This document shows, one piece after another, positions 5,290 through 20,632 of a DNA stretch of 23,003 bases. Source of the DNA: a virus; IMG/VR virus record IMGVR_UViG_3300002514_000097, positions 10,198 through 33,200 of that record. One strand, given 5' to 3'. The notes below the pieces were generated by a model, which had not been told where the DNA came from, ran no database searches, and worked only from the letters and a program-made list of their open reading frames with translations. Both the position numbers and the translations under genes were made by a program. Each line of letters begins with the position of its first letter. Position 1 is the first letter of the stretch.

Positions 5290-5781
5290 ATGGCACAATT
5301 AATAACCCCGAATGAAATAATGTTTACATCGTTTGAACCTAAACAAGCGAATAGGTTCATCATGTATATAGAGGGTATACCCGCATATTTAATAAAATCG
5401 GCTAACAGACCAAACTACTCAGCTGGAAAAGTAACTATTGACCATGTAAATGTATCCCGATACGTAAAAGGGAAAAGTACTTGGGCAGATGTAACAATTT
5501 CACTTTATGACCCAGTAGTTCCTTCAGCAGCACAAGCAGTAATGGAGTGGGTAAGACTACACCACGAATCAGTAACAGGTCGAGATGGATATTCTGATTT
5601 TTACAAAAAGGACATAACATTTAACAGTTTAGGTCCAGTTGGTGATAAGGTAGAGGAATGGACATTGAAAGGTTCATTCATAACAGGTGCAACATTTTCT
5701 GATATGGATTATGGTACAGCAGATACAGCAGCAACAGTAGACCTTACATTATCATACGATTACGCCATTCTACAATACTAA
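5290..5781 (+). CDS. 19: Tail tube protein, T4 gp19-like
   Basis: Tail tube subunit, 163 residues, the same length as T4 gp19. It forms the inner hexameric rings through which DNA passes. Recognisable features are ANRFIMYIEGIPAYLIKSANRP at residues 20-41 (a tube beta-strand ending in the K-x-x-x-R-P turn), VTISLYDPVVPSAAQAVMEW at about 68-87, and a C-terminal strand pair EEWTLKGSFIT...DLTLSYDYAIL. SD GGAGA lies 7 nt before the ATG. The gene is isolated by terminators on both sides and has its own TATTTATA element, matching the need for many copies. Directly following the sheath gene is the usual order. Confidence 0.95.
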   Translation: MAQLITPNEIMFTSFEPKQANRFIMYIEGIPAYLIKSANRPNYSAGKVTIDHVNVSRYVKGKSTWADVTISLYDPVVPSAAQAVMEWVRLHHESVTGRDGYSDFYKKDITFNSLGPVGDKVEEWTLKGSFITGATFSDMDYGTADTAATVDLTLSYDYAILQY

Positions 5782-5812
5782 ATTCAAATTGATTAAATAT
5801 AAATTGAAAGTT

Positions 5813-5845
5813 AAAACCCCAACCTTATGTTGGGGTTTTTGTTTT
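5813..5845 (+). terminator. Rho-independent terminator after tube gene
   Basis: AAAACCCCAAC (5813-5823) and GTTGGGGTTTT (5829-5839) form a perfect 11-bp stem with a CTTAT loop, followed by TGTTTT. This is the strongest terminator in the window. Both arms contain A/T runs, so it could also act on the opposite strand. Confidence 0.9.
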
Positions 5846-5909: not shown

Positions 5910-6788
5910 ATGAGTAACGAGTTACAAGATGACTACAAAAGTCCAGTGTCCAATGAAGAAATGGTTCGTATCGCAGCCCAACAATACGAACATAAAAAAG
6001 TATCTGAATATAAATTCCCTACGGAAATCGTAGAATTACCATCCAAAGGGTTAGTTTATTCAATCGATAATCCATTATCAAGTGGTAAAGTTGAAATGAA
6101 GTATATGACTGCCAAGGAGGAAGATATTCTAACTACACAATCATACATCAAAGATGGTAGTGTTTTAGATAGACTATTAAAATCATTAATTATAAGTAAT
6201 GGAGATGGCCATCATATTAAGTATGATGATTTAGTAGTGGGTGATAAAAATGCAATAATGATTGCGGCACGGATATTAGGGTATGGTAAAGATTATAAAG
6301 TAAATATAAACGACCCATTCTCTGGTGAAAAACAAGAAGAGGTAATTGATTTAACTGAATTTGAAAATAAACCATATGATGGTTCAAGTCAAGTGGAATT
6401 AAACAAAAATGAATTTGAATTTACATTACCTAATTCTAACAGAGAGATAATTTTCCAATTAATTACAGAATCAAAGGAAAAATACATCAAACGCCAAATA
6501 AAAAATCTAACAAAAGCAAGTAGGAAGTTGGGGGATAAAACATCAAAAGAATTAACAACTCGTTTGAAAACGATGATACTATCCGTTGATGGTGAAACTG
6601 ATAAAAAATATATAAGTAGTTTTGTTGAAAATGAGTTATTCGCAGTAGATTCTCGTGCAATACGAAGTCATGTCAAGGAAGTATCACCCGATATTGATTT
6701 GATGTTTGAATTTGTATCAGAAGAAACTGGGGAAAGGAGGGAAATGTCTATGCCTATGGGCACTAACTTTTTTTGGCCTGAAAGTTGA
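5910..6788 (+). CDS. 26: Baseplate hub / tail assembly chaperone, T4 gp26-like (0-frame product)
   Basis: A 292-residue protein of the T4 baseplate-assembly type (gp26/gp51-like). Signs are KFPTEIVELPSKGLVYSIDN at residues 35-54, a strand-turn VEMKYMTAKEEDILT at 61-75, then VLDRLLKSLI, an ILGYG turn, and a segment near 130-150 where relatives often carry Cys-x-x-Cys but this one has N-D-P-F-S-G-E. It ends ...MPMGTNFFWPES. SD AAGGAG lies 9 nt before the ATG. It lies between the tube and tape measure genes, where other phages encode tail assembly chaperones. A long open frame continues in +1 from the T7 run at 6768, so a frameshifted longer product of about 357 residues is likely (see 6768-6984). 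The exact T4 counterpart (26 or 51) is uncertain. Confidence 0.75.
   Translation: MSNELQDDYKSPVSNEEMVRIAAQQYEHKKVSEYKFPTEIVELPSKGLVYSIDNPLSSGKVEMKYMTAKEEDILTTQSYIKDGSVLDRLLKSLIISNGDGHHIKYDDLVVGDKNAIMIAARILGYGKDYKVNINDPFSGEKQEEVIDLTEFENKPYDGSSQVELNKNEFEFTLPNSNREIIFQLITESKEKYIKRQIKNLTKASRKLGDKTSKELTTRLKTMILSVDGETDKKYISSFVENELFAVDSRAIRSHVKEVSPDIDLMFEFVSEETGERREMSMPMGTNFFWPES
6768..6774 (+). other. Candidate ribosomal frameshift or slippage site (T7 run)
   Basis: Zero-frame codons read AAC TTT TTT TGG CCT GAA AGT TGA. Skipping one T (+1), slipping back two (-2), or losing one U by transcriptional slippage joins the frame to GGC CTG AAA GTT GAT, which stays open to 6984. A perfect SD (AGGAGG, 6735-6740) lies 27 nt upstream inside the gene, followed by three in-frame ATGs (6744, 6750, 6756). 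That distance is too long for the usual stimulatory SD of -1 or +1 sites. Confidence 0.5.
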
Positions 6789-6984
6789 TGACAAACCATT
6801 AATACATAGTCAAATATTTGACTTGATATATCATGGAAATGGAGGTTTCACTTTTTCAGATGTATACAATATGCCGATATGGGCTAGAAAATACTATATC
6901 AAAAAAATTGTTGAATTTAAACAACAAGAACAGAAGTCATATGAGAAACAAGTTAAAAAAACCAAAGGGGGGATTAGAAAATAA
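6775..6984 (+). CDS. Frameshifted C-terminal extension of the chaperone (T-like part)
   Basis: A 69-residue segment in the +1 frame relative to the gp26-like gene. It reads as real protein: PLIHSQIFDLIYHGNGGFTF, then DVYNMPIWARKYYIKKIVEF, then a lysine/glutamine-rich tail. I recall similar H-x-x-I-F...G-G-F...V-Y-x-M-P-I-x-x-R-x-Y-Y-I patterns in small proteins next to gp26-type genes in marine T4-like phages. No ATG, GTG or TTG occurs in this frame between the internal SD and this segment. The only upstream ATG in frame (6706) has no SD and would add a Cys/Leu/Lys-rich stretch that is just the shadow of the other frame. Fusion by frameshift is therefore the simplest reading; a sequencing indel in the T run is the alternative. 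Confidence 0.6.
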   Translation, partial: GLKVDDKPLIHSQIFDLIYHGNGGFTFSDVYNMPIWARKYYIKKIVEFKQQEQKSYEKQVKKTKGGIRK

Positions 6985-7002: not shown

Positions 7003-7032
7003 TATACATAACAAACTAAAGTGAGGAACACT

Positions 7033-7212
7033 ATGAATTTTTTAAGAAAGTTAATATCACATAAAATTCTTAAATCTATAGAAAAGTTAGCTACTACAGA
7101 CCCCGTACTACGTAAGAAGTTTGACGAATTGGGTAAGGATGCTGATGACTTAGCAAAATTAATTGCAGCATCTAGGGAGCGTAAAAAACATTCTTCCTTA
7201 TATAAAAAATAA
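7033..7212 (+). CDS. Small helical protein before tape measure, unknown
   Basis: A 59-residue protein I do not recognise. The ATG at 7033 has SD GAGG (7023-7026) at 6-nt spacing, so I prefer it to the GTG at 7021, which overlaps that SD. The sequence is amphipathic and basic at the end (RERKKHSSLYKK), with predicted helices around residues 5-22 and 25-50 and no membrane segment. It lies between the chaperone and tape measure genes, 19 nt before the latter, and shares their transcript. Proteins of this size and place may help tape measure folding or cap the tape measure end; that is a guess from position only. Confidence 0.65.
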   Translation: MNFLRKLISHKILKSIEKLATTDPVLRKKFDELGKDADDLAKLIAASRERKKHSSLYKK

Positions 7213-7231: not shown

Positions 7232-9670
7232 ATGAAAAAAAATGACGATAATAAGAAAAACCTGACGCCTGCAGAAAAAACCGCGGCTAAACTCGCAGCA
7301 GAAAAAGTTAAAGCCGCAAAAGAACTTGCTGATGCTAAAAAAAGAGAAGCTGCCATTGAAAAGCAAAGAGCTAAAGTCGCCGAAGAGGATAGGAATAAAG
7401 AAATCAAGGACAGTGAATTTCTTAGAGATATCCAGTTTGAACTTACGGAGTTGACAAAAGAAGATTTAGAATACAAAGACGAGATAAATAAATTACGTGA
7501 TGACACGATGGTTAAGATGGTCAAGGAAAAAGAAAACCAAGACCAACAACTCAAAACCTTATCCGCATATAAATTAGAGATGAGAGCACTTGTAGATATA
7601 AAGTCTAAGGAAGGTGTGGAGTTAATGAAAGACATTGATGTAATGGAAGCTCTTATTAAATACGAGAAAAAACGAGTCACCATAACAGATGAGTTAAAAT
7701 CCAAATCGGATGGTTTATTAAATGGATTGGAAAGTCAAATTAAAAAAGTTCCATTTATAGGTGATTTGTTAGCAAAATCAATAGATTTCGGTAGTTTGAA
7801 AGAAGAAATGGGAGTTATTTTAAGTGGTATTACTACACAGTTTTTTTCCTTGAAGACAACAGGTATGTCATCAGGCCTAGCGATTAAAACGGCATTTAAG
7901 TCTGCAATACCAAGTATTGCAACATTTGGTGCAACACTTGTACCATTATTACCAATTATATTGCCAATAGTAGCAACGATGGTACTCCTAAAAAAAGCAT
8001 TCAACCTTGATAAAGAAGTAACTGAACTATCAAGAAATTTAGGAATCGCAAAAGACGTAGCACGAGAAATGAATTATGAATTTAAACAGATGGCGGCATC
8101 TGATATATCAGTTACATCTAAAGAGTTACTATCGGCCCAAACAGAATTAGCAGAAGCCACTGGTATGTCGGCTCAATTCTCAGAGGATATGTTAAAGACT
8201 CAAGTAAAACTCGTTAAGTTTATGGGTATGACTGGAGCAAAAGCCGCAGAACTCGGTGTATATTCTAAGTCTATTGGTATGGACGCTAGAGACCTTCAAT
8301 TAGAAGTAGTTGGGGTAGTTCATCAATTTAATGAACTTACTGGTACATCAGTAAAATATAAAGATGTATTAAACGATATAACTGAGTTAAGCTCAAGCCT
8401 AAGAGCGAATTTTAAAGGTAATGTAGAGGAAATGGCTAAAGCTGTAACATTAGCTAGAAGTATGGGTATTAGTTTAACAGAATCAAATGCGGCTGCCGAA
8501 GGAACATTATCAATATCATCATCAATAAAAAAAGAAATGACAGCCATGATGGTAGCGGGTGTTAACATTAATAACAATGCAATTAGACGAGCAAAATTAG
8601 AAGGAAAACCTGAGGAAGTTTTACGGTTACAAAAAGAACAACTGTTAGAGATGGGTGATTTAAACAACAAATCAGAATTCCAAAACCAAGCAATTGCAGA
8701 TGCTATGCATTTGAGTCTTGACAAACTAATGGATATGAATGAACACGCTAATTTTCAAAGAGAAATGAATGTGGATATTTCCAAAGCAACTATAGACCAG
8801 ATAAACAACTCAAAAACACTAGGTGAAGAAAAAAAGAAAGAATTAATAGCATCAATAGAACAAGCATCAATGCAAGAAAAAATAGCTGGGTTAGCTGACA
8901 AACTTGGTAAAATATTTCTAGGATTCGAACCTGTATTAAATGTGGTTGTTGATGTACTATCTGTAATAGCAGATGGAGTTAATTTGCTATTAACTCCATT
9001 TACCTTTATATACGATATAATCAGGCAATCAGGAGCGGCCCTTATTACTTTTTACGGCACGTTGGGATTAATATGGGCAAGAAAGAAGGGCATACTGACT
9101 ACTGACAAGGCGAAAGCAGCATGGGAACTTATTCAAAATGGGTATTTATCGGCTCGTAAGGGAATTATAGCAACAAACGCAGCTATGGAAAAAAAGGGTA
9201 TGCTTGCAAGTGTTTGGTCTATGGCCATAGAAGCTGCAAAATCTGTCGTGAAGACTCCAATCATCGGGCCTCTTTTAATGGCGGCAGCAGCGGGGTCGGC
9301 CGTAGCATTTGGTATGTCATTATTTTCAAAAGCAGGAGACATCATGTCACCCGCGGATGGTAAAACACAAGTATCAACAAAAGAGGGTGGTTTATTTGAA
9401 TTATCCCCTAATGATGATGTAGTCGCAGCACCAGGGTTACTTAACAATAATAGGGGGCGTGGTGAGGATAGTGGGCGTGGTGAGGATAGTGGGCGTGGTA
9501 AAACGGGCGGTGGAATAGACCTAAGTGGTTTAATAAATGAAATAAAAGGATTAAGAAGTGATATACAAGCACAACCAATACAGATTACAGTTGATGGTCG
9601 TGTAGTTTCTGAAATAAGTAAAATAGCAAGACAACAAGATAGCGTACGAACAACTGGATATGGGAGATAA
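7232..9670 (+). CDS. Tape measure protein (T4 gp29 equivalent)
   Basis: An 812-residue tape measure protein that sets tail length and sits inside the tube. The N-terminal 165 residues are a highly charged Ala/Lys/Glu coiled coil. A Gly/Ser-rich stretch and a strongly hydrophobic segment follow at about 226-254 (VPLLPIILPIVATMVLL), then a long helical body (255-550). Further hydrophobic segments lie at about 565-600 and in TPIIGPLLMAAAAGSAVAFG, before a Gly/Arg-rich linker with GRGEDS repeats and a short C-terminal domain. T4 gp29 is 590 aa. At the usual ratio of about 0.15 nm per residue, this length would suggest a tail near 120 nm. SD is weak (GAGAT). I recognise the class from composition and position, not close sequence identity to gp29. 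Confidence 0.85.
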   Translation: MKKNDDNKKNLTPAEKTAAKLAAEKVKAAKELADAKKREAAIEKQRAKVAEEDRNKEIKDSEFLRDIQFELTELTKEDLEYKDEINKLRDDTMVKMVKEKENQDQQLKTLSAYKLEMRALVDIKSKEGVELMKDIDVMEALIKYEKKRVTITDELKSKSDGLLNGLESQIKKVPFIGDLLAKSIDFGSLKEEMGVILSGITTQFFSLKTTGMSSGLAIKTAFKSAIPSIATFGATLVPLLPIILPIVATMVLLKKAFNLDKEVTELSRNLGIAKDVAREMNYEFKQMAASDISVTSKELLSAQTELAEATGMSAQFSEDMLKTQVKLVKFMGMTGAKAAELGVYSKSIGMDARDLQLEVVGVVHQFNELTGTSVKYKDVLNDITELSSSLRANFKGNVEEMAKAVTLARSMGISLTESNAAAEGTLSISSSIKKEMTAMMVAGVNINNNAIRRAKLEGKPEEVLRLQKEQLLEMGDLNNKSEFQNQAIADAMHLSLDKLMDMNEHANFQREMNVDISKATIDQINNSKTLGEEKKKELIASIEQASMQEKIAGLADKLGKIFLGFEPVLNVVVDVLSVIADGVNLLLTPFTFIYDIIRQSGAALITFYGTLGLIWARKKGILTTDKAKAAWELIQNGYLSARKGIIATNAAMEKKGMLASVWSMAIEAAKSVVKTPIIGPLLMAAAAGSAVAFGMSLFSKAGDIMSPADGKTQVSTKEGGLFELSPNDDVVAAPGLLNNNRGRGEDSGRGEDSGRGKTGGGIDLSGLINEIKGLRSDIQAQPIQITVDGRVVSEISKIARQQDSVRTTGYGR
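9455..9499 (+). repeat. 18-nt tandem repeat in tape measure gene
   Basis: Two identical copies of GGGCGTGGTGAGGATAGT (9455-9472, 9473-9490) and a half copy (9491-9499). They encode GRGEDS units in the flexible linker before the C-terminal domain. The G-rich composition differs from the AT-rich surroundings. Confidence 0.9.
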
Positions 9671-9674
9671 CTAA

Positions 9675-12600
9675 ATGGCTTTAAAAGATTTAAAATCGGA
9701 TTTATCAAAGTTTAGAATGCCAACGAAAGACCCCTTGGTTAATAAACAACGTGAATCTATAAAGAAGAAACAAAATCAAACTCCGTTGAGCTCAATGTTA
9801 AAGTCAAAACCTAATTTAGAAACATCAGACAAGACACCTACTAAACAAGGAACAAAAGTAAACAAGTTTGATAATTCATCTAACTTTTTAGGTGAGACAG
9901 ACCCATCTGCATTTGATAATTCATCTAACTTTTTAGGTGAGACTAGTCCAACTAAATTTGATAATAGTTCTAACTTTTTAGGTGAGACTAGTCCAACTAA
10001 ATTTGATAATTCATCTAACTTTTTAGGTGAGACAGACCCATCTGCATTTGATAATTCATCTAACTTTTTAGGTGAGACTAGTCCAACTAAATTTGATAAT
10101 TCATCTAACTTTTTAGGTGAGACAGACCCATCTGCATTTGATAATTCAACCAGATTCTTAGGAGAAACTTGTCCAACTGATTTTACATTTAACCCCAATC
10201 ATAGTAGTACAGCTAAAACACCAGGTGAAGTAAATTATTTTTCTGATATTCATGCAACGGGGTTTACATCTAACTTTAATGATGTAGATGCTACTAAATT
10301 TGTTGGTATAAATCCAAGTAATACTATATTTGATACAACAACATCTGCATATGGAAACTTCGGTAATTCCTACACAGGCCTAGGGTTCTCGGCGGGCTAC
10401 GAAGCATATAAACCAGTCGGTTCTTTTACGGGAGATACACCAAGATATCAACCTGATATAAAATATTCTACTAATTCTTTTAAGGAATTGTCAATACCAT
10501 CAAATGGTATACTAATTGGACAAGATGGAACGGGATTCCTTCATCACCAGTGGTTTTCTCGTGCAAGTTATGCAATGATGAATGGGGTGATGTTTAGACC
10601 AGGTTATGGTATTTTTAAATCTAATTTAGCATTAATGGCGCCTAAATATAAGGGCCTAAACCCTGGTGATACTGACCATTATACTACAGATACACATATA
10701 CCACAATTAAAACAAATTGACAGGGGAATATTTCATTTACAAGATGGAACAGGTTTCCTTGATATCTATTGGGGATATCAAGTATTGAGTTCTACTACGG
10801 GGAATCCAGACCAGTCTACAACTTTTAGACCAGGTTATGGTAGTTACAAGACATTAACCAACGCACCACTATTGGGTAGTATATATAAGGGGTTAAACGT
10901 GGGGGATACTGACCACTATACCACAGATACACATATACCAGAATTAAAACAACTTAATAGAGGAATATTCAATTTACAAGATGGTACGGGTTTCCTTGAT
11001 ACCTATTGGGCAAATCTCGTATCAAGTTACACTATAATAAATCCAGACCAGTCTACAACTTTTAGACCAGGTTATGGTAGCTACACATTTAATAATACAC
11101 CGTTATTAGGTAGTATATATAAGGGTCTAAATACAGGTGACACAGACCATTATACTACTGATGCACATATACCAGAATTAAAGAAACTTGATAGAGGGAT
11201 ATTCCATTTACAAACCGACCCCGTTAATGGTCTCCCATTCAATAGACAACATTGGGCAACCCATGCATTTAGTGGATTCTACTCTGGTATGACTCGTGTC
11301 AGACCTGGTTACGCTAGTTTAAAGTTTACCATAACCGACAGTCTTGTTGGTTCTGCATATACTGGTTTGAATCCAAGTGATGATGGTTGGTATACCACAG
11401 AAGAATCAAGACTATCGTTAAAACCAAAATTAAAACAAGTTGGTAGAGGGATACAGAACTTACAAGAACCAAGCTTTATTCAAGATTTATATAATAGAGA
11501 TATAAATTTGGCTAAATTCGATTTCCCAGAATGGAATTTCAAATTTAGACCAGGTTATCAAAATTTTAAATCATCTGATTATATAGCAGAGGTATCGCCA
11601 AGGTTTAACTATACCGATACTTATACTACCGATGGATACTCTACAGTACCAGAATTAACAAGTGACAGTATACAAACTTTACATCAGAAAGCAAATTCAA
11701 AATCTTTCTTGGATAAGATGTATGATAAGTATAATCTAAAAGATGATGCATATAATACGGGTTTCGATATACCATTATTAAAACATCCTCTAATCCTAAG
11801 AGGTATACAGAGACCAGGTGGAGAACCTGATAATTTCGGTATTGCAGGAGTAACTTTTGATGATGGGTTCATTAGAGGTGGTGCAATTACATCTACTGTA
11901 AGAGCAGGAATAGATGTCGCAAGAATAGCTAAATGGATGGCGTCGCCAAAAGGAATTGTATGGGCAGGTAGACAATTTCTATCACAACTCGGTAACAAGT
12001 ATAGTCGAATTTGGACACCCATAAATCTATTAATGGCAGTAGGTGGTCAACATATTGGGTTGAAACCGATGAGGGGTGGGTTAATACCACTACGTGACGC
12101 CCGAAGTCTATACTTCCCCAACAAAATCCTAGACAAAGAAGGAAATTTCAAAAATCTGAGGGATAAATTAAAAGAAATATACACAGGTGTTGAAATGAAA
12201 GCCACTGGTGTTTCACCCGCCAAGGGTAAAGGTATAAAAAACCTACCATTCGAATCACAAACTTATTTTGGTGGCCCGATGTCATTCTATGGAATTGGGG
12301 TGACAAGAACGAAACGACATGAAGATACATTTGCCGCGGCATTCGATACCTCAGATAACTCTGCAAATTATGAGGCAGGCACCCCATATACCACACTTGA
12401 AACAGCACCACCCGTTTATAATCTCGCGCATGTAGGAGTGGGAACACAAGGCGTTCGAATGACAAGTACACCCTCAGGTGCACCACCGAGAGAAAAATCT
12501 TCAAAAAAACCATACCAACAAAAATATAATCCATTTGATAAAAACCAAAATAAAAAAGCTTTTTCAACATCTATATTCGAAAATACATACCAGAACGATG

Positions 12601-14279
12601 TAGGTATCATAACAGATGACAACCGACCAACATTTGGGTTAGCAGGAATACAAGATAAATTTAAAGTAGTACCAAAAGATAAGAATGCAAGTGGAGTCAG
12701 TGACGAGTTTGGGAAACAAAAAATAAACCCATTCAAACCCGATGATAATGATGGCACGAGTCCTGATGAGACTACTAAGGTGTATAGTCCATCAGATTCT
12801 AGAAACAAAAAAGCAAAAGGTAAAGATGATGTTAGTGTACCATCCCACATTTTCGACAAAATGAAGTTTGGTTTGGCCGGAGAGTCCGAGGATAGAACAG
12901 ATGATAAGGGTTATAATAAAGTAGATGAACATAATCCAAGTAAATACCCTTATAGTTGGAGTGAAAGTGATATCGTTACGGATATAAAAAATCAGCCTAT
13001 AAACCCATTCAAAACAGATGATGATGAGAAAGTATACAGTCCAAGAGATGCTGTTTACCCAGGTTCTAGTGGTAAAAAAGATGGTGTTAGTGTTCCAACA
13101 GATATTGATGAGAGAAGTGCCTTTGGATTAACAACAGACTCAGTCGCACGTACAACAAGTGATGGAACTTATAAAGTAGATGAAACTAATCCAGATATTA
13201 AAAAAGATATTCAAAACCAGAAACTTAATCCATTCAAAACGGATGATGTATATAAGGTCTATAGCCCAGCACATTCCAAACACAAAGTTGCAACACATAA
13301 AGATGATGTCAGTGTACCAACTGATGTTTATGAATTAGCATCTTTCGGGTTGGGTGGAACACAGCATATTATAGAAGATATAGATGGCGTTAAAACTGAT
13401 AATCATGGTAATTCACTATCAATGAAATCGGCCACAGTACCAGGTAGTATGTATCCAAGTCCAATAGAAGCGTATGAAACAATCGCATACGGTAAGATAC
13501 CAAATACACGACTGACACCCGGAATAGTAACACATGATTTCAGAACTTTACTATCAGCCACAAATGAAAATAAATTGATAGCCGACAACAGAGCAGACAA
13601 TCATCACAAAAGAACTGAATTTGGCCACCCAGGAAACGTAGGAGCTGACAAGGAGAAATGGTGGTTAACTGGAGCAGCTGCCATTTCTGCAGAAGGTACT
13701 GTGACTCGACATGATAAGATAAACGCCAACCCCATAAGCTCAACTGCTCCACTCAATGATTTAATACATTTATGGTTTAAAAATGATGGTGAATATATAC
13801 AGTTTAGGGGAGTTGTAAGTTCAATTCAAGAAACATTTTCACCAGGTTGGTCTCCGGTTAAGTATAGTGGCCGTGCTGATTCTGGATATAAGTACGATTC
13901 ATTTGATAGGTCATTAAGTTTTAATTTTCAAGTAACCGCTACATCAAGAATTGAAATGAAAAATATTTGGTTAAAATTAGAACACTTATCAACATTAACA
14001 ATGCCCTCGTATTACACAGATGGTAATGGTTATAAGGGTAACTTAATAGAATTTAGATTGGGTTCTTTATATAATGATAAACTAGCATTTTTCAAATCTT
14101 TCAGTTACACCATGAAAACAGATGTACCTTGGGAAATATCACCATTAGGTTCAAATAAGTCTATTGGTGAACTACCACGTAGTATAGATGTGTCAGTTGG
14201 TTTACAGATACTTGATGGTGTTAAGCAACACGCTGGTGCTAAAATTTACGATTTCGCCGAGCTCAGAACAAATGGTTAA
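9675..14279 (+). CDS. Giant repeat-containing baseplate protein
   Basis: A 1534-residue protein with, in order: a basic N-terminus (1-64); seven 15-aa repeats FDNSSNFLGET-x-P-x-x (65-169) with degenerate copies to about 220; about five copies of a 77-82-aa unit with 'RGIFHLQDGTGFLD' and 'FRPGYGSY' motifs (275-660); a Gly-rich helical part (700-930); three units of 75-90 aa with 'NPFKxDD...KVYSP...DDVSVP...FGL' (985-1228); and a C-terminal domain (about 1345-1520). The last begins LIHLWFKNDGEYIQFRGVV and includes the patterns GRADxxYxYDSFDRSLSFNF and ELPRSIDVSV. That domain resembles, from memory, the C-terminal part of T4-like baseplate/tube-initiator proteins of marine phages. Position after the tape measure and before gp53-like and hub genes fits a baseplate role. 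SD GGGAGA lies inside the end of the tape measure gene. The repeats may form a fibrous or expanded extension; that is inferred. Confidence 0.72.
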   Translation: MALKDLKSDLSKFRMPTKDPLVNKQRESIKKKQNQTPLSSMLKSKPNLETSDKTPTKQGTKVNKFDNSSNFLGETDPSAFDNSSNFLGETSPTKFDNSSNFLGETSPTKFDNSSNFLGETDPSAFDNSSNFLGETSPTKFDNSSNFLGETDPSAFDNSTRFLGETCPTDFTFNPNHSSTAKTPGEVNYFSDIHATGFTSNFNDVDATKFVGINPSNTIFDTTTSAYGNFGNSYTGLGFSAGYEAYKPVGSFTGDTPRYQPDIKYSTNSFKELSIPSNGILIGQDGTGFLHHQWFSRASYAMMNGVMFRPGYGIFKSNLALMAPKYKGLNPGDTDHYTTDTHIPQLKQIDRGIFHLQDGTGFLDIYWGYQVLSSTTGNPDQSTTFRPGYGSYKTLTNAPLLGSIYKGLNVGDTDHYTTDTHIPELKQLNRGIFNLQDGTGFLDTYWANLVSSYTIINPDQSTTFRPGYGSYTFNNTPLLGSIYKGLNTGDTDHYTTDAHIPELKKLDRGIFHLQTDPVNGLPFNRQHWATHAFSGFYSGMTRVRPGYASLKFTITDSLVGSAYTGLNPSDDGWYTTEESRLSLKPKLKQVGRGIQNLQEPSFIQDLYNRDINLAKFDFPEWNFKFRPGYQNFKSSDYIAEVSPRFNYTDTYTTDGYSTVPELTSDSIQTLHQKANSKSFLDKMYDKYNLKDDAYNTGFDIPLLKHPLILRGIQRPGGEPDNFGIAGVTFDDGFIRGGAITSTVRAGIDVARIAKWMASPKGIVWAGRQFLSQLGNKYSRIWTPINLLMAVGGQHIGLKPMRGGLIPLRDARSLYFPNKILDKEGNFKNLRDKLKEIYTGVEMKATGVSPAKGKGIKNLPFESQTYFGGPMSFYGIGVTRTKRHEDTFAAAFDTSDNSANYEAGTPYTTLETAPPVYNLAHVGVGTQGVRMTSTPSGAPPREKSSKKPYQQKYNPFDKNQNKKAFSTSIFENTYQNDVGIITDDNRPTFGLAGIQDKFKVVPKDKNASGVSDEFGKQKINPFKPDDNDGTSPDETTKVYSPSDSRNKKAKGKDDVSVPSHIFDKMKFGLAGESEDRTDDKGYNKVDEHNPSKYPYSWSESDIVTDIKNQPINPFKTDDDEKVYSPRDAVYPGSSGKKDGVSVPTDIDERSAFGLTTDSVARTTSDGTYKVDETNPDIKKDIQNQKLNPFKTDDVYKVYSPAHSKHKVATHKDDVSVPTDVYELASFGLGGTQHIIEDIDGVKTDNHGNSLSMKSATVPGSMYPSPIEAYETIAYGKIPNTRLTPGIVTHDFRTLLSATNENKLIADNRADNHHKRTEFGHPGNVGADKEKWWLTGAAAISAEGTVTRHDKINANPISSTAPLNDLIHLWFKNDGEYIQFRGVVSSIQETFSPGWSPVKYSGRADSGYKYDSFDRSLSFNFQVTATSRIEMKNIWLKLEHLSTLTMPSYYTDGNGYKGNLIEFRLGSLYNDKLAFFKSFSYTMKTDVPWEISPLGSNKSIGELPRSIDVSVGLQILDGVKQHAGAKIYDFAELRTNG
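9867..10181 (+). repeat. Seven 45-bp tandem repeats (15-aa coding repeat)
   Basis: Units start at 9867, 9912, 9957, 10002, 10047, 10092 and 10137. Each encodes FDNSSNFLGET plus a variable tail, DPSA (type A) or SPTK (type B), in the order A-B-B-A-B-A followed by a diverged copy ending CPTD. Copies 1+2 and 4+5 look identical in DNA. Copy 3 differs only by synonymous changes in the Ser codons (AATAGTTCT against AATTCATCT). The array encodes protein and is not CRISPR. Confidence 0.97.
10503..11654 (+). repeat. About five ~240-bp coding repeats
   Basis: Imperfect protein repeats of 77-82 residues within the giant baseplate protein. FRPGYG-like motifs start near residues 307, 384, 463, 542 and 624, and D-T-D-H-Y-T-T-D motifs near 332, 411 and 489. 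Copies 2 and 3 are close in DNA; the outer copies are diverged, which suggests old duplication with recent exchange in the middle. Confidence 0.85.
12627..13358 (+). repeat. Three ~75-90-residue coding repeats
   Basis: Third repeat family in the same gene, with NPFK-x-D-D near residues 1018, 1110 and 1185, KVYSP 15-20 residues later in each, and D-(D/G)-VSVP followed by FGL. It is diverged at DNA level. It is polar and Lys/Asp-rich, probably extended or poorly folded. Confidence 0.8.
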
Positions 14280-19363: not shown

Positions 19364-20632
19364 ATGATAGAATTTATAGAAAAAGGAAAAGTTGATATGG
19401 AAGTAGTGTATATCCATCCTATATGGGCGGATATACACTCCCACTATATTAATAATAAATTATCATTAATATATATTTATGATATACAGAGTGGCAGGGA
19501 GCTTGTAGTAAATATTGGAAATACAGACCATCATACAACACATATAAACCATCTCACCTTTGATTTCAAGGAAGCGTTTGTGTTTGGTAAAAAGTCGTTC
19601 TTAAATTTGATTCAACTTCCTTATATGTATGATGCCGACCTAATAAAGTATCTACAAGTGAACGAGCAACTAAAACGGAATCAAACTCCTTGTCACTCTT
19701 TTTTTTATAGAAAATTCCACAATGTTAGAGGTGTAAATAATTTAATTCCGATTGGCAAACATATAGAATCCATCAGAAAAACAAAAGATGAGTTTCTTCA
19801 GCATTATGATAGTGAAAATGGTATTACAGAAGAAGCAAAGAAATTTGATAATTTCTATATAAAATCATTACACGACATAGAGAAAAATGGATTATACACT
19901 TCCAACGGCTTTGAACACTCACAATACAATATATATACAACAACATCAAGACCATCCAATACATTCAATGGAGTAAACTATGCAGCCTTAAACAAAGAGG
20001 ATGGTAGTAGGTCAAGGTTTATATCAAGATTCGATGGTGGCAAGTTAATACAGTTTGATTACGATGCATATCACCCACGAATAATTGGTAAGATGGTTGG
20101 AGAACCCATTTCAAATGAGGTCTCTGGTCACCAAGTATTAGCCGATATGTATGGAGTATCTTATGATGAATCAAAAGCAATTACATTTAGACAATTATAT
20201 GGTGGTGTACAAGATGAATATTTACATATACCACTATTTCAAAAAACATCACATTGGATTGATTTGAATTGGATGGAGTTTAATCGTAATGGGTATGTTA
20301 AAACTCCATTAGGTAGAAAGTTAAAAAAAGGTAACTTTAGAAACATGAATGCCAACAAATTATTTAACTATATGTTACAAGCAACAGAGACCGAGTTGAA
20401 TGTACGCATTATATCCAAAATAAATGGGTTTTTAAAGGATAAAAAGTCAAAATTGATGTTATACACATATGACTCATATTTATTAGATATACACCCACAA
20501 GAATTTAGTTTATTAAATCAATTAAAGATACTTATAGAAGGTAATGGTTTTAAATCTAAAGTGGAAATTGGTGATAATTATTCAGAGATGAAACCAATTG
20601 AAATAGAAAACAAGCAGGAAAATATTATATGA
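19364..20632 (+). CDS. Compact family A DNA polymerase
   Basis: PolI-type DNA polymerase of 422 residues, about 411 if translation starts at the ATG at 19397, which has AAGGA 9-10 nt before it. Visible motifs are a TxxRPSNTFNGVNYAAL strand-binding region (about 194-209); motif A LIQFDYDAYHPRI with catalytic D232 (228-240); motif B SKAITFRQLYGG with K271, F275 and Y279 (270-281); NYMLQATETELN (335-346); and motif C YTYDSYLLDI with catalytic D370 (367-376). Unusual residues are His237 where E. coli has E710, Tyr at the R754 position, and Y-D-S in place of H-D-E. The first 110 residues look like a worn RNase-H/exonuclease fold without DEDD residues. There is no 5'-nuclease domain. T4 itself uses a family B polymerase, so this is a different replicase type or an accessory enzyme. 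Confidence 0.82.
   Translation: MIEFIEKGKVDMEVVYIHPIWADIHSHYINNKLSLIYIYDIQSGRELVVNIGNTDHHTTHINHLTFDFKEAFVFGKKSFLNLIQLPYMYDADLIKYLQVNEQLKRNQTPCHSFFYRKFHNVRGVNNLIPIGKHIESIRKTKDEFLQHYDSENGITEEAKKFDNFYIKSLHDIEKNGLYTSNGFEHSQYNIYTTTSRPSNTFNGVNYAALNKEDGSRSRFISRFDGGKLIQFDYDAYHPRIIGKMVGEPISNEVSGHQVLADMYGVSYDESKAITFRQLYGGVQDEYLHIPLFQKTSHWIDLNWMEFNRNGYVKTPLGRKLKKGNFRNMNANKLFNYMLQATETELNVRIISKINGFLKDKKSKLMLYTYDSYLLDIHPQEFSLLNQLKILIEGNGFKSKVEIGDNYSEMKPIEIENKQENII

Follow-up and report, generated by a model that had tools for sequence, protein, structure and literature searches.

In the viral DNA described here, a tail assembly chaperone gene located 5' of the tape measure gene very probably uses programmed +1 frameshifting by tRNA-Phe at a UUU_Y site to produce a short form (TAC-N) and an extended form (TAC-NC), as judged by comparison of related sequences. 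The analysed DNA (the window) is a stretch of 23,003 nucleotides from an IMG/VR virus record of 36,567 bases. A first-pass annotation, made from the letters of the window, had proposed a programmed frameshift that extends a gp26-family gene product to a G/GT-like chaperone, and the comparison with relatives strongly supports this proposal. The relevant features of the window are all on the plus strand:

5290..5781, plus strand: tail tube protein, upstream neighbour (phrog_4542 tail tube, E 2.1e-23)
5910..6788, plus strand: ORF1, predicted short chaperone form TAC-N of the T4 gp26 family, 292 amino acids, frame 0 (PF12322, phrog_150, relatives)
6735..6740, plus strand: AGGAGG, Shine-Dalgarno-like tract; its end is 27 nt upstream of the first Phe codon in the slip site
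6744..6758, plus strand: three in-frame ATGs (6744, 6750, 6756) 3' of AGGAGG, kept in close relatives only
6765..6767, plus strand: AAC codon 5' of the slip site; in the +1 branch the codon here never ends in T if TTT comes next
6768..6776, plus strand: putative slip site TTT TTT TGG (UUU_Y in 146 of 146 distinct +1 junctions)
6775..6984, plus strand: T domain (TAC-C), +1 frame, 69 codons and stop, kept in relatives and linked to gp51 via the -1 branch
6786..6788, plus strand: TGA, frame 0 stop and end of TAC-N (from the sequence)
7232..9670, plus strand: probable tape measure protein, downstream neighbour (similarity to the tape measure protein of phage immuto)

ORF1 is a member of the T4 gp26 family: it matches PF12322 (T4_baseplate) with 30.2 bits, above the curated cut-off of 24.5, and phrog_150 (baseplate hub) with an E-value of 5.6e-10. 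The ORF at 7232-9670 is similar to a protein that is annotated as tape measure in Flavobacterium phage immuto (25% identity over 321 amino acids, E 2e-19), and an ORF of 63 amino acids (7021-7212) is found between this probable tape measure gene and the T domain. The order tail tube, chaperone, tape measure is that of the G/GT-type genes, and the earlier placement of the gene between tube and tape measure holds, with phrog_4542 upstream and the relative of the immuto protein downstream. The gap between the tail tube and chaperone genes has a terminator-like hairpin with a T tract (5810-5845; ACCCCAACCTTATGTTGGGGTTTTTG), and the SP-15 record has a terminator annotated at the matching place (L005, 2918-2950).

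From the run of seven Ts (6768-6774), frame 0 reads TTT TTT TGG CCT GAA AGT TGA and ORF1 ends with ..NFFWPES. The +1 frame is free of stops from 6703 to 6984 and encodes 69 residues when counted from the GGC at 6775; a +1 fusion would give a TAC-NC of 357 amino acids with the junction ..NFFGLK... All elements of this layout as first described (ORF1, T run, 69-codon +1 continuation and 357-residue product) were recomputed and confirmed. The second frame (ORF2) alone has no good match in Pfam or PHROGs.

Scans of IMG/VR yielded 249 usable loci, which represent 150 distinct junctions: 146 with the T domain in the +1 frame and four with it in the -1 frame. Each of the 146 distinct +1 junctions has, at one of two adjacent codons, a UUU with U or C as the next base. 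This is the arrangement of +1 shifting at UUU_Y, with UUU in the P-site, U or C next and the second ORF in +1 (146/146); UUU_Ynn is especially prone to +1 shifting in bacteria (PMC5009743). A heptamer of the type X_XXY_YYZ, as used for -1 shifting, is not found in the window: the second ORF is in +1, and AAC TTT TTT TGG has no U before the UUU. In a phage collection, both parts of the gene match Microcystis phage Mel-JY01, Flavobacterium phage immuto and the huge phage LR756508, always adjacent and always in +1 offset. The comparison of homologues that had been suggested at the outset finds the frames adjacent and offset by the same shift, the conserved site being UUU_Y (146 of 150 in +1). A conserved C-terminal extension in another frame is here combined with a conserved slip site near the 3' end, as in G/GT-type genes. 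The T domain has one strong match per genome in seven other records, two of which are phages deposited as complete, and the T-domain search of these seven records gave no sign of a separate long-form gene. On this sequence evidence, the fixed offset of the two frames is more than chance.

The T run of the window would offer other routes into the +1 frame, and -2 shifting and transcript slippage had initially been listed next to a +1 shift. On seven Ts alone, -2 re-pairing is as good as +1 re-pairing, T runs permit slipping of the RNA polymerase, and -2 ribosomal slippage is the established mode of phage Mu (PMC5009743). However, the slip sites of the +1 junctions vary: TTT TTT is followed by TGG, TAC or TTC and TTT CTT by TGG or TAC, and TTT CTA TGG and TTC TTT TGG are found as well. 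Relatives with TTT CTT TGG (21 distinct junctions), TTC TTT TGG (8), TTT CTA TGG (3) and TTT CTT TAC (2) hold the offset without a long T run or -2 re-pairing, and these CTT, CTA and TTC variants remove both polymerase slippage and -2 slippage as general explanations. Of the three routes the +1 shift is kept; that one of the other two reaches the +1 frame is very unlikely.

ORF2 could also be a separate small gene, with translation starting internally or restarting at the ORF1 stop. Two relatives (L204 and L209) have an ORF2 with its own ATG, 5-8 nt downstream of the base that begins the ORF1 stop, several phages of the -1 branch described below have TAATG or TGATG overlaps (L093, L094, L097, L099), and a Shine-Dalgarno-like tract is present upstream of the slip site. 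However, 44 of the 146 +1 junctions have no ATG, GTG or TTG for ORF2 between the last upstream stop in the same frame and ten codons into the domain, and in the window the sole start codons of the +1 frame upstream of the T domain are two distant TTGs, 80 and 74 nt before the ORF1 stop, consistent with the early description of an extension without a usable start of its own. UUU_Y is invariant in the +1 branch even where any start is missing and is gone in both relatives with their own ATG, which also have a -1-frame stop in between: to go by their sequences, L204 and L209, with an own ATG for ORF2 and no need of the shift, have lost the slip site. Independent initiation of ORF2 is therefore extremely unlikely. 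The first-pass annotation had also considered relatives with a single continuous gene, or with an extension that has its own start; no continuous ORF was found among relatives of the window clade, and the own-ATG relatives are the two that lack the slip site.

The place of the proposed +1 shift is narrowly bounded. In at least 20 of the 146 +1 junctions there is a +1-frame stop 2 nt before the first Phe codon, and from this codon to the ORF1 stop the distance is 15-27 nt; the absence of a start and the closeness of the flanking stops mean that the frames must join within about TTT TTT TGG CCT NNN. Across 51 close relatives, TTT TTT TGG CCT is codon-invariant. Of the 105 invariant ORF1 residues in these relatives (Met and Trp left out), seven have a single codon throughout, and three of these seven are the neighbouring F287, F288 and P290. 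Upstream of the site in frame 0, and downstream of it in the +1 frame, variation is low at codon positions 1 and 2 and high at position 3 (entropy at the 5' to 3' codon positions of the +1 frame downstream of the site: 0.36/0.29/0.99). The chance of an indel error or a decayed gene is negligible: single-base changes in homopolymers are the commonest type of sequencing error, but the same offset is present in 146 distinct junctions from many samples as well as in the cultured phages Mel-JY01 and immuto, both frames show coding-type constraint, and the number of independent samples excludes a sequencing indel.

What the comparison yields is two conserved frames in +1 offset, a UUU_Y site, no usable ORF2 start and a confined shift site; a +1 shift by the ribosome in vivo, its rate and the roles of both products are what we infer. 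Most ribosomes would translate frame 0 up to the TGA at 6786 and produce TAC-N (292 amino acids), while a minority would slip by +1 at TTT TTT TGG (6768-6776). In these, the peptidyl-tRNA-Phe on UUU would re-pair one base downstream (UUU_U) while the next codon waits, GGC would be read in place of UGG, and the T domain would be added to give TAC-NC (357 amino acids). If lambda gpG and gpGT are a guide, TAC-N would coat the tape measure protein, while tail tube subunits would be recruited by the T domain of TAC-NC.

The base in front of the slip site is a simple and testable rule for the direction of the shift. In the +1 branch, T as last base of the codon before the slip TTT is found in 0 of 138 cases, where codon use predicts 66.5, and in 0 of 18 (9.1 expected) when the sequences are clustered at 60% identity; as a control, other TTT codons of these genes have a preceding T in 232 cases versus 286.6 expected. 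Where the first Phe codon of a +1 site is TTC, a preceding T is tolerated (4/8). In the -1 branch, which consists of relatives of P-SSM2 (cyanophages), all 55 loci have the preceding T, giving U_UUU_UUC, and in all 55 the -1 frame stays open for 50 codons or more. The counts of both branches come from related sequences and are not independent events. A tendency to avoid longer homopolymers could add to the avoidance of U in the +1 branch but leaves the TTT CTT sites unexplained. A tree of TAC-N from 26 records separates a mainly +1 branch from a -1 branch with 100/100 support: the former has the window, Mel-JY01, immuto, LR756508, SP-15 and SagM-GXN1 (in the last two the T domain was recognised by eye only) together with LR756511, which is -1 and has a long branch; the latter has T4, the cyanophages and Rhizobium, Vibrio, Stenotrophomonas, Acidovorax and Ackermannviridae phages.

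The two branches also differ in the spacing of a Shine-Dalgarno-like tract. In +1 junctions, such a tract lies 20-31 nt upstream of the slip site in 109 of 146 cases versus 31.7 expected from synonymous shuffling, in most relatives without a start codon behind it; no enrichment was found at RF2-like or dnaX-like distances of 0-14 nt upstream (4 versus 5.5 expected). In the -1 branch, the tract is at 10-11 nt in 52 of 55 loci (27 expected), and 10-11 nt is the spacing of the Shine-Dalgarno-like stimulator of the dnaX type. We know of no frameshift stimulator that acts at a distance of 20-31 nt upstream. It is possible, as a tentative reading, that the family holds opposite and mutually exclusive cassettes, one for -1 (tract at 10-11 nt and U_UUU_UUC, in the T4/cyanophage branch) and one for +1 (UUU_Y, U avoided and a tract at about 27 nt, in the window branch), and that the far tract is a +1 stimulator of a kind not described before. 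Around or after the slip site, no conserved RNA structure that could stimulate the shift was detected (mean z near 0). The internal AGGAGG with its three ATGs, noticed at the start as a possible origin of a short C-terminal product, is present in the window; AGGAGG with ATG is kept among close relatives (31/38) and is found in only 2 of 108 loci elsewhere, so such a product is unlikely to be its general purpose.

The relation to T4 is seen through the -1 branch. HHalign aligns the window fusion with the -1 fusions across the junction (E 5.9e-9); the -1 fusions align with both domains of T4 gp51 (E 1.1e-10) and with T4 gp26 (E 7e-23) in an alignment that ends at FF. The homology of the T domain to the C-terminal part of gp51 thus runs through the -1 fusions, and direct HHalign comparison of the window family with T4 gp26 or gp51 alone gave no match. 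As gp26 aligns only up to FF and gp51 over both domains, gp26 is the counterpart of the short form and gp51 that of the long form, in agreement with the claim, as cited in PMC10885494, that some T4-like phages have a short gene together with a fused one. Both T4 proteins are given as chaperones of hub assembly in PMC3004832.

An AlphaFold2 model of the 357-residue product has a mean pLDDT of 85 with an alignment of 60 sequences (an earlier model from a shallow alignment had 54); the link and the start of the T domain are of low confidence, and a long helix forms the end. Among predicted viral structures, the fusion model matches hub proteins of the gp26 family, from both branches. A Foldseek search of the model against the PDB found nothing at E 0.001, with the HK97 tail assembly chaperone 2ob9 at E 3.1; 2ob9 was also the top solved structure in a second look (Z 4.9, rmsd 4.3, 90 of 107 residues), below the secure level, and a likeness of the predicted fusion to this fold is suggestive only. 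When separate fragments of ORF1 and ORF2 were aligned jointly with the fusion by MAFFT, the fragments came out in the wrong place, and these alignments were set aside.

T4-like tail assembly chaperones are known, as is -1 frameshifting in T4-like TAC-N genes. Vladimirov, Gautam and Davidson 2022 (Virology 566:9-15) reportedly describe frameshifting as conserved in several T4-like groups, with T4 itself using genes 26 and 51. The first-pass annotation had known of no established case in the gp26 family, which is outdated: according to PMC12846349 (its reference 76), frameshifting in T4-like TAC-N genes has been reported in the -1 direction. An older statement has G-T frameshifting conserved in long-tailed phages 'except T4', and the same source gives the shift of tail chaperones as -1, -2 or +1 depending on the phage, with +1 very likely in the archaeal virus HSTV-2 (PMC5009743). 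As far as these sources go, the window branch and the T4-like phages have in common the TAC-N family PF12322 and the C-terminal domain, the need for a short and a long form, and frameshifting; in contrast, the known T4-like signals are -1 (U_UUU_UUC in the cyanophages here) and T4 has two genes, whereas the window branch is +1 at UUU_Y and avoids the -1 heptamer. Searches of the open-access literature found no publication on the +1 branch. This branch, the clean split in direction and the Shine-Dalgarno-like tract about 27 nt upstream are apparently new.

Several other systems share parts of the arrangement. Lambda gpG/gpGT and other long-tailed phages (Xu, Hendrix and Duda 2004) have the same location between tube and tape measure and the same pair of a short and a frameshift-extended product, but lambda shifts by -1 and the window branch by +1. 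The chaperone of Vandenendeviridae (Pseudomonas phage Adele) likewise has TAC-N and TAC-NC and, ahead of the tape measure gene, a T-rich slip site that is conserved, but shifts by -1 at GTTTTT (PMC12846349). In influenza A PA-X (UCC_UUU_CGU) and Yersinia YopN-TyeA, P-site tRNA-Phe slips from UUU to UUY, as is proposed here; these are other genes, and the site of the window branch is usually UUU_UUU_UGG, although Streptococcus phage SagM-GXN1, a member of the window branch whose T domain was recognised by eye only, has UUU_CGU as in PA-X. The site TTT CTT TGG of the immuto type contains CUU_U, the site of RF2 (prfB; PMC5009743); unlike RF2, the window branch has no stop codon in the A-site and no enriched Shine-Dalgarno-like element close by.

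Within the family, the need for two products is met in at least four ways, by a -1 slip, a +1 slip, an own start of ORF2 and two genes (T4), making it a natural experiment on the evolution of frameshift direction. Single relatives add some detail: L193 and LR756511 have U_UUU_UUC with the T domain in -1, and L180 has TTC TTC with the T domain in -1 and matches no clear slip site. L204 and L209 suggest that a free-standing T domain can work. In Ackermannviridae and kin (L097, L098, L099), the T domain is in -1 without a canonical heptamer; the sites are GTT TTT CGC, ATT TTC ATT and CTT TTC AAG, and two have a TAATG stop-start overlap.

The finding also concerns how several hundred phage sequences of marine and freshwater origin are annotated, since their T domain is absent from the annotation, cut short or given as a hypothetical protein. 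The cyanophage records L004, L089, L090 and L091, for example, label it a truncated 'gp51' (hub assembly catalyst) or a hypothetical protein, although it is open in -1 back to U_UUU_UUC. Elsewhere in the window, an ORF of 1534 amino acids (9675-14279) begins with several near-identical copies of a 15-residue repeat (FDNSSNFLGETSPTK / FDNSSNFLGETDPSA), and an ORF of 422 amino acids (19364-20632) resembles, by eye, the C-terminal part of a family A DNA polymerase (QFDYDAYHPRIIGKM).
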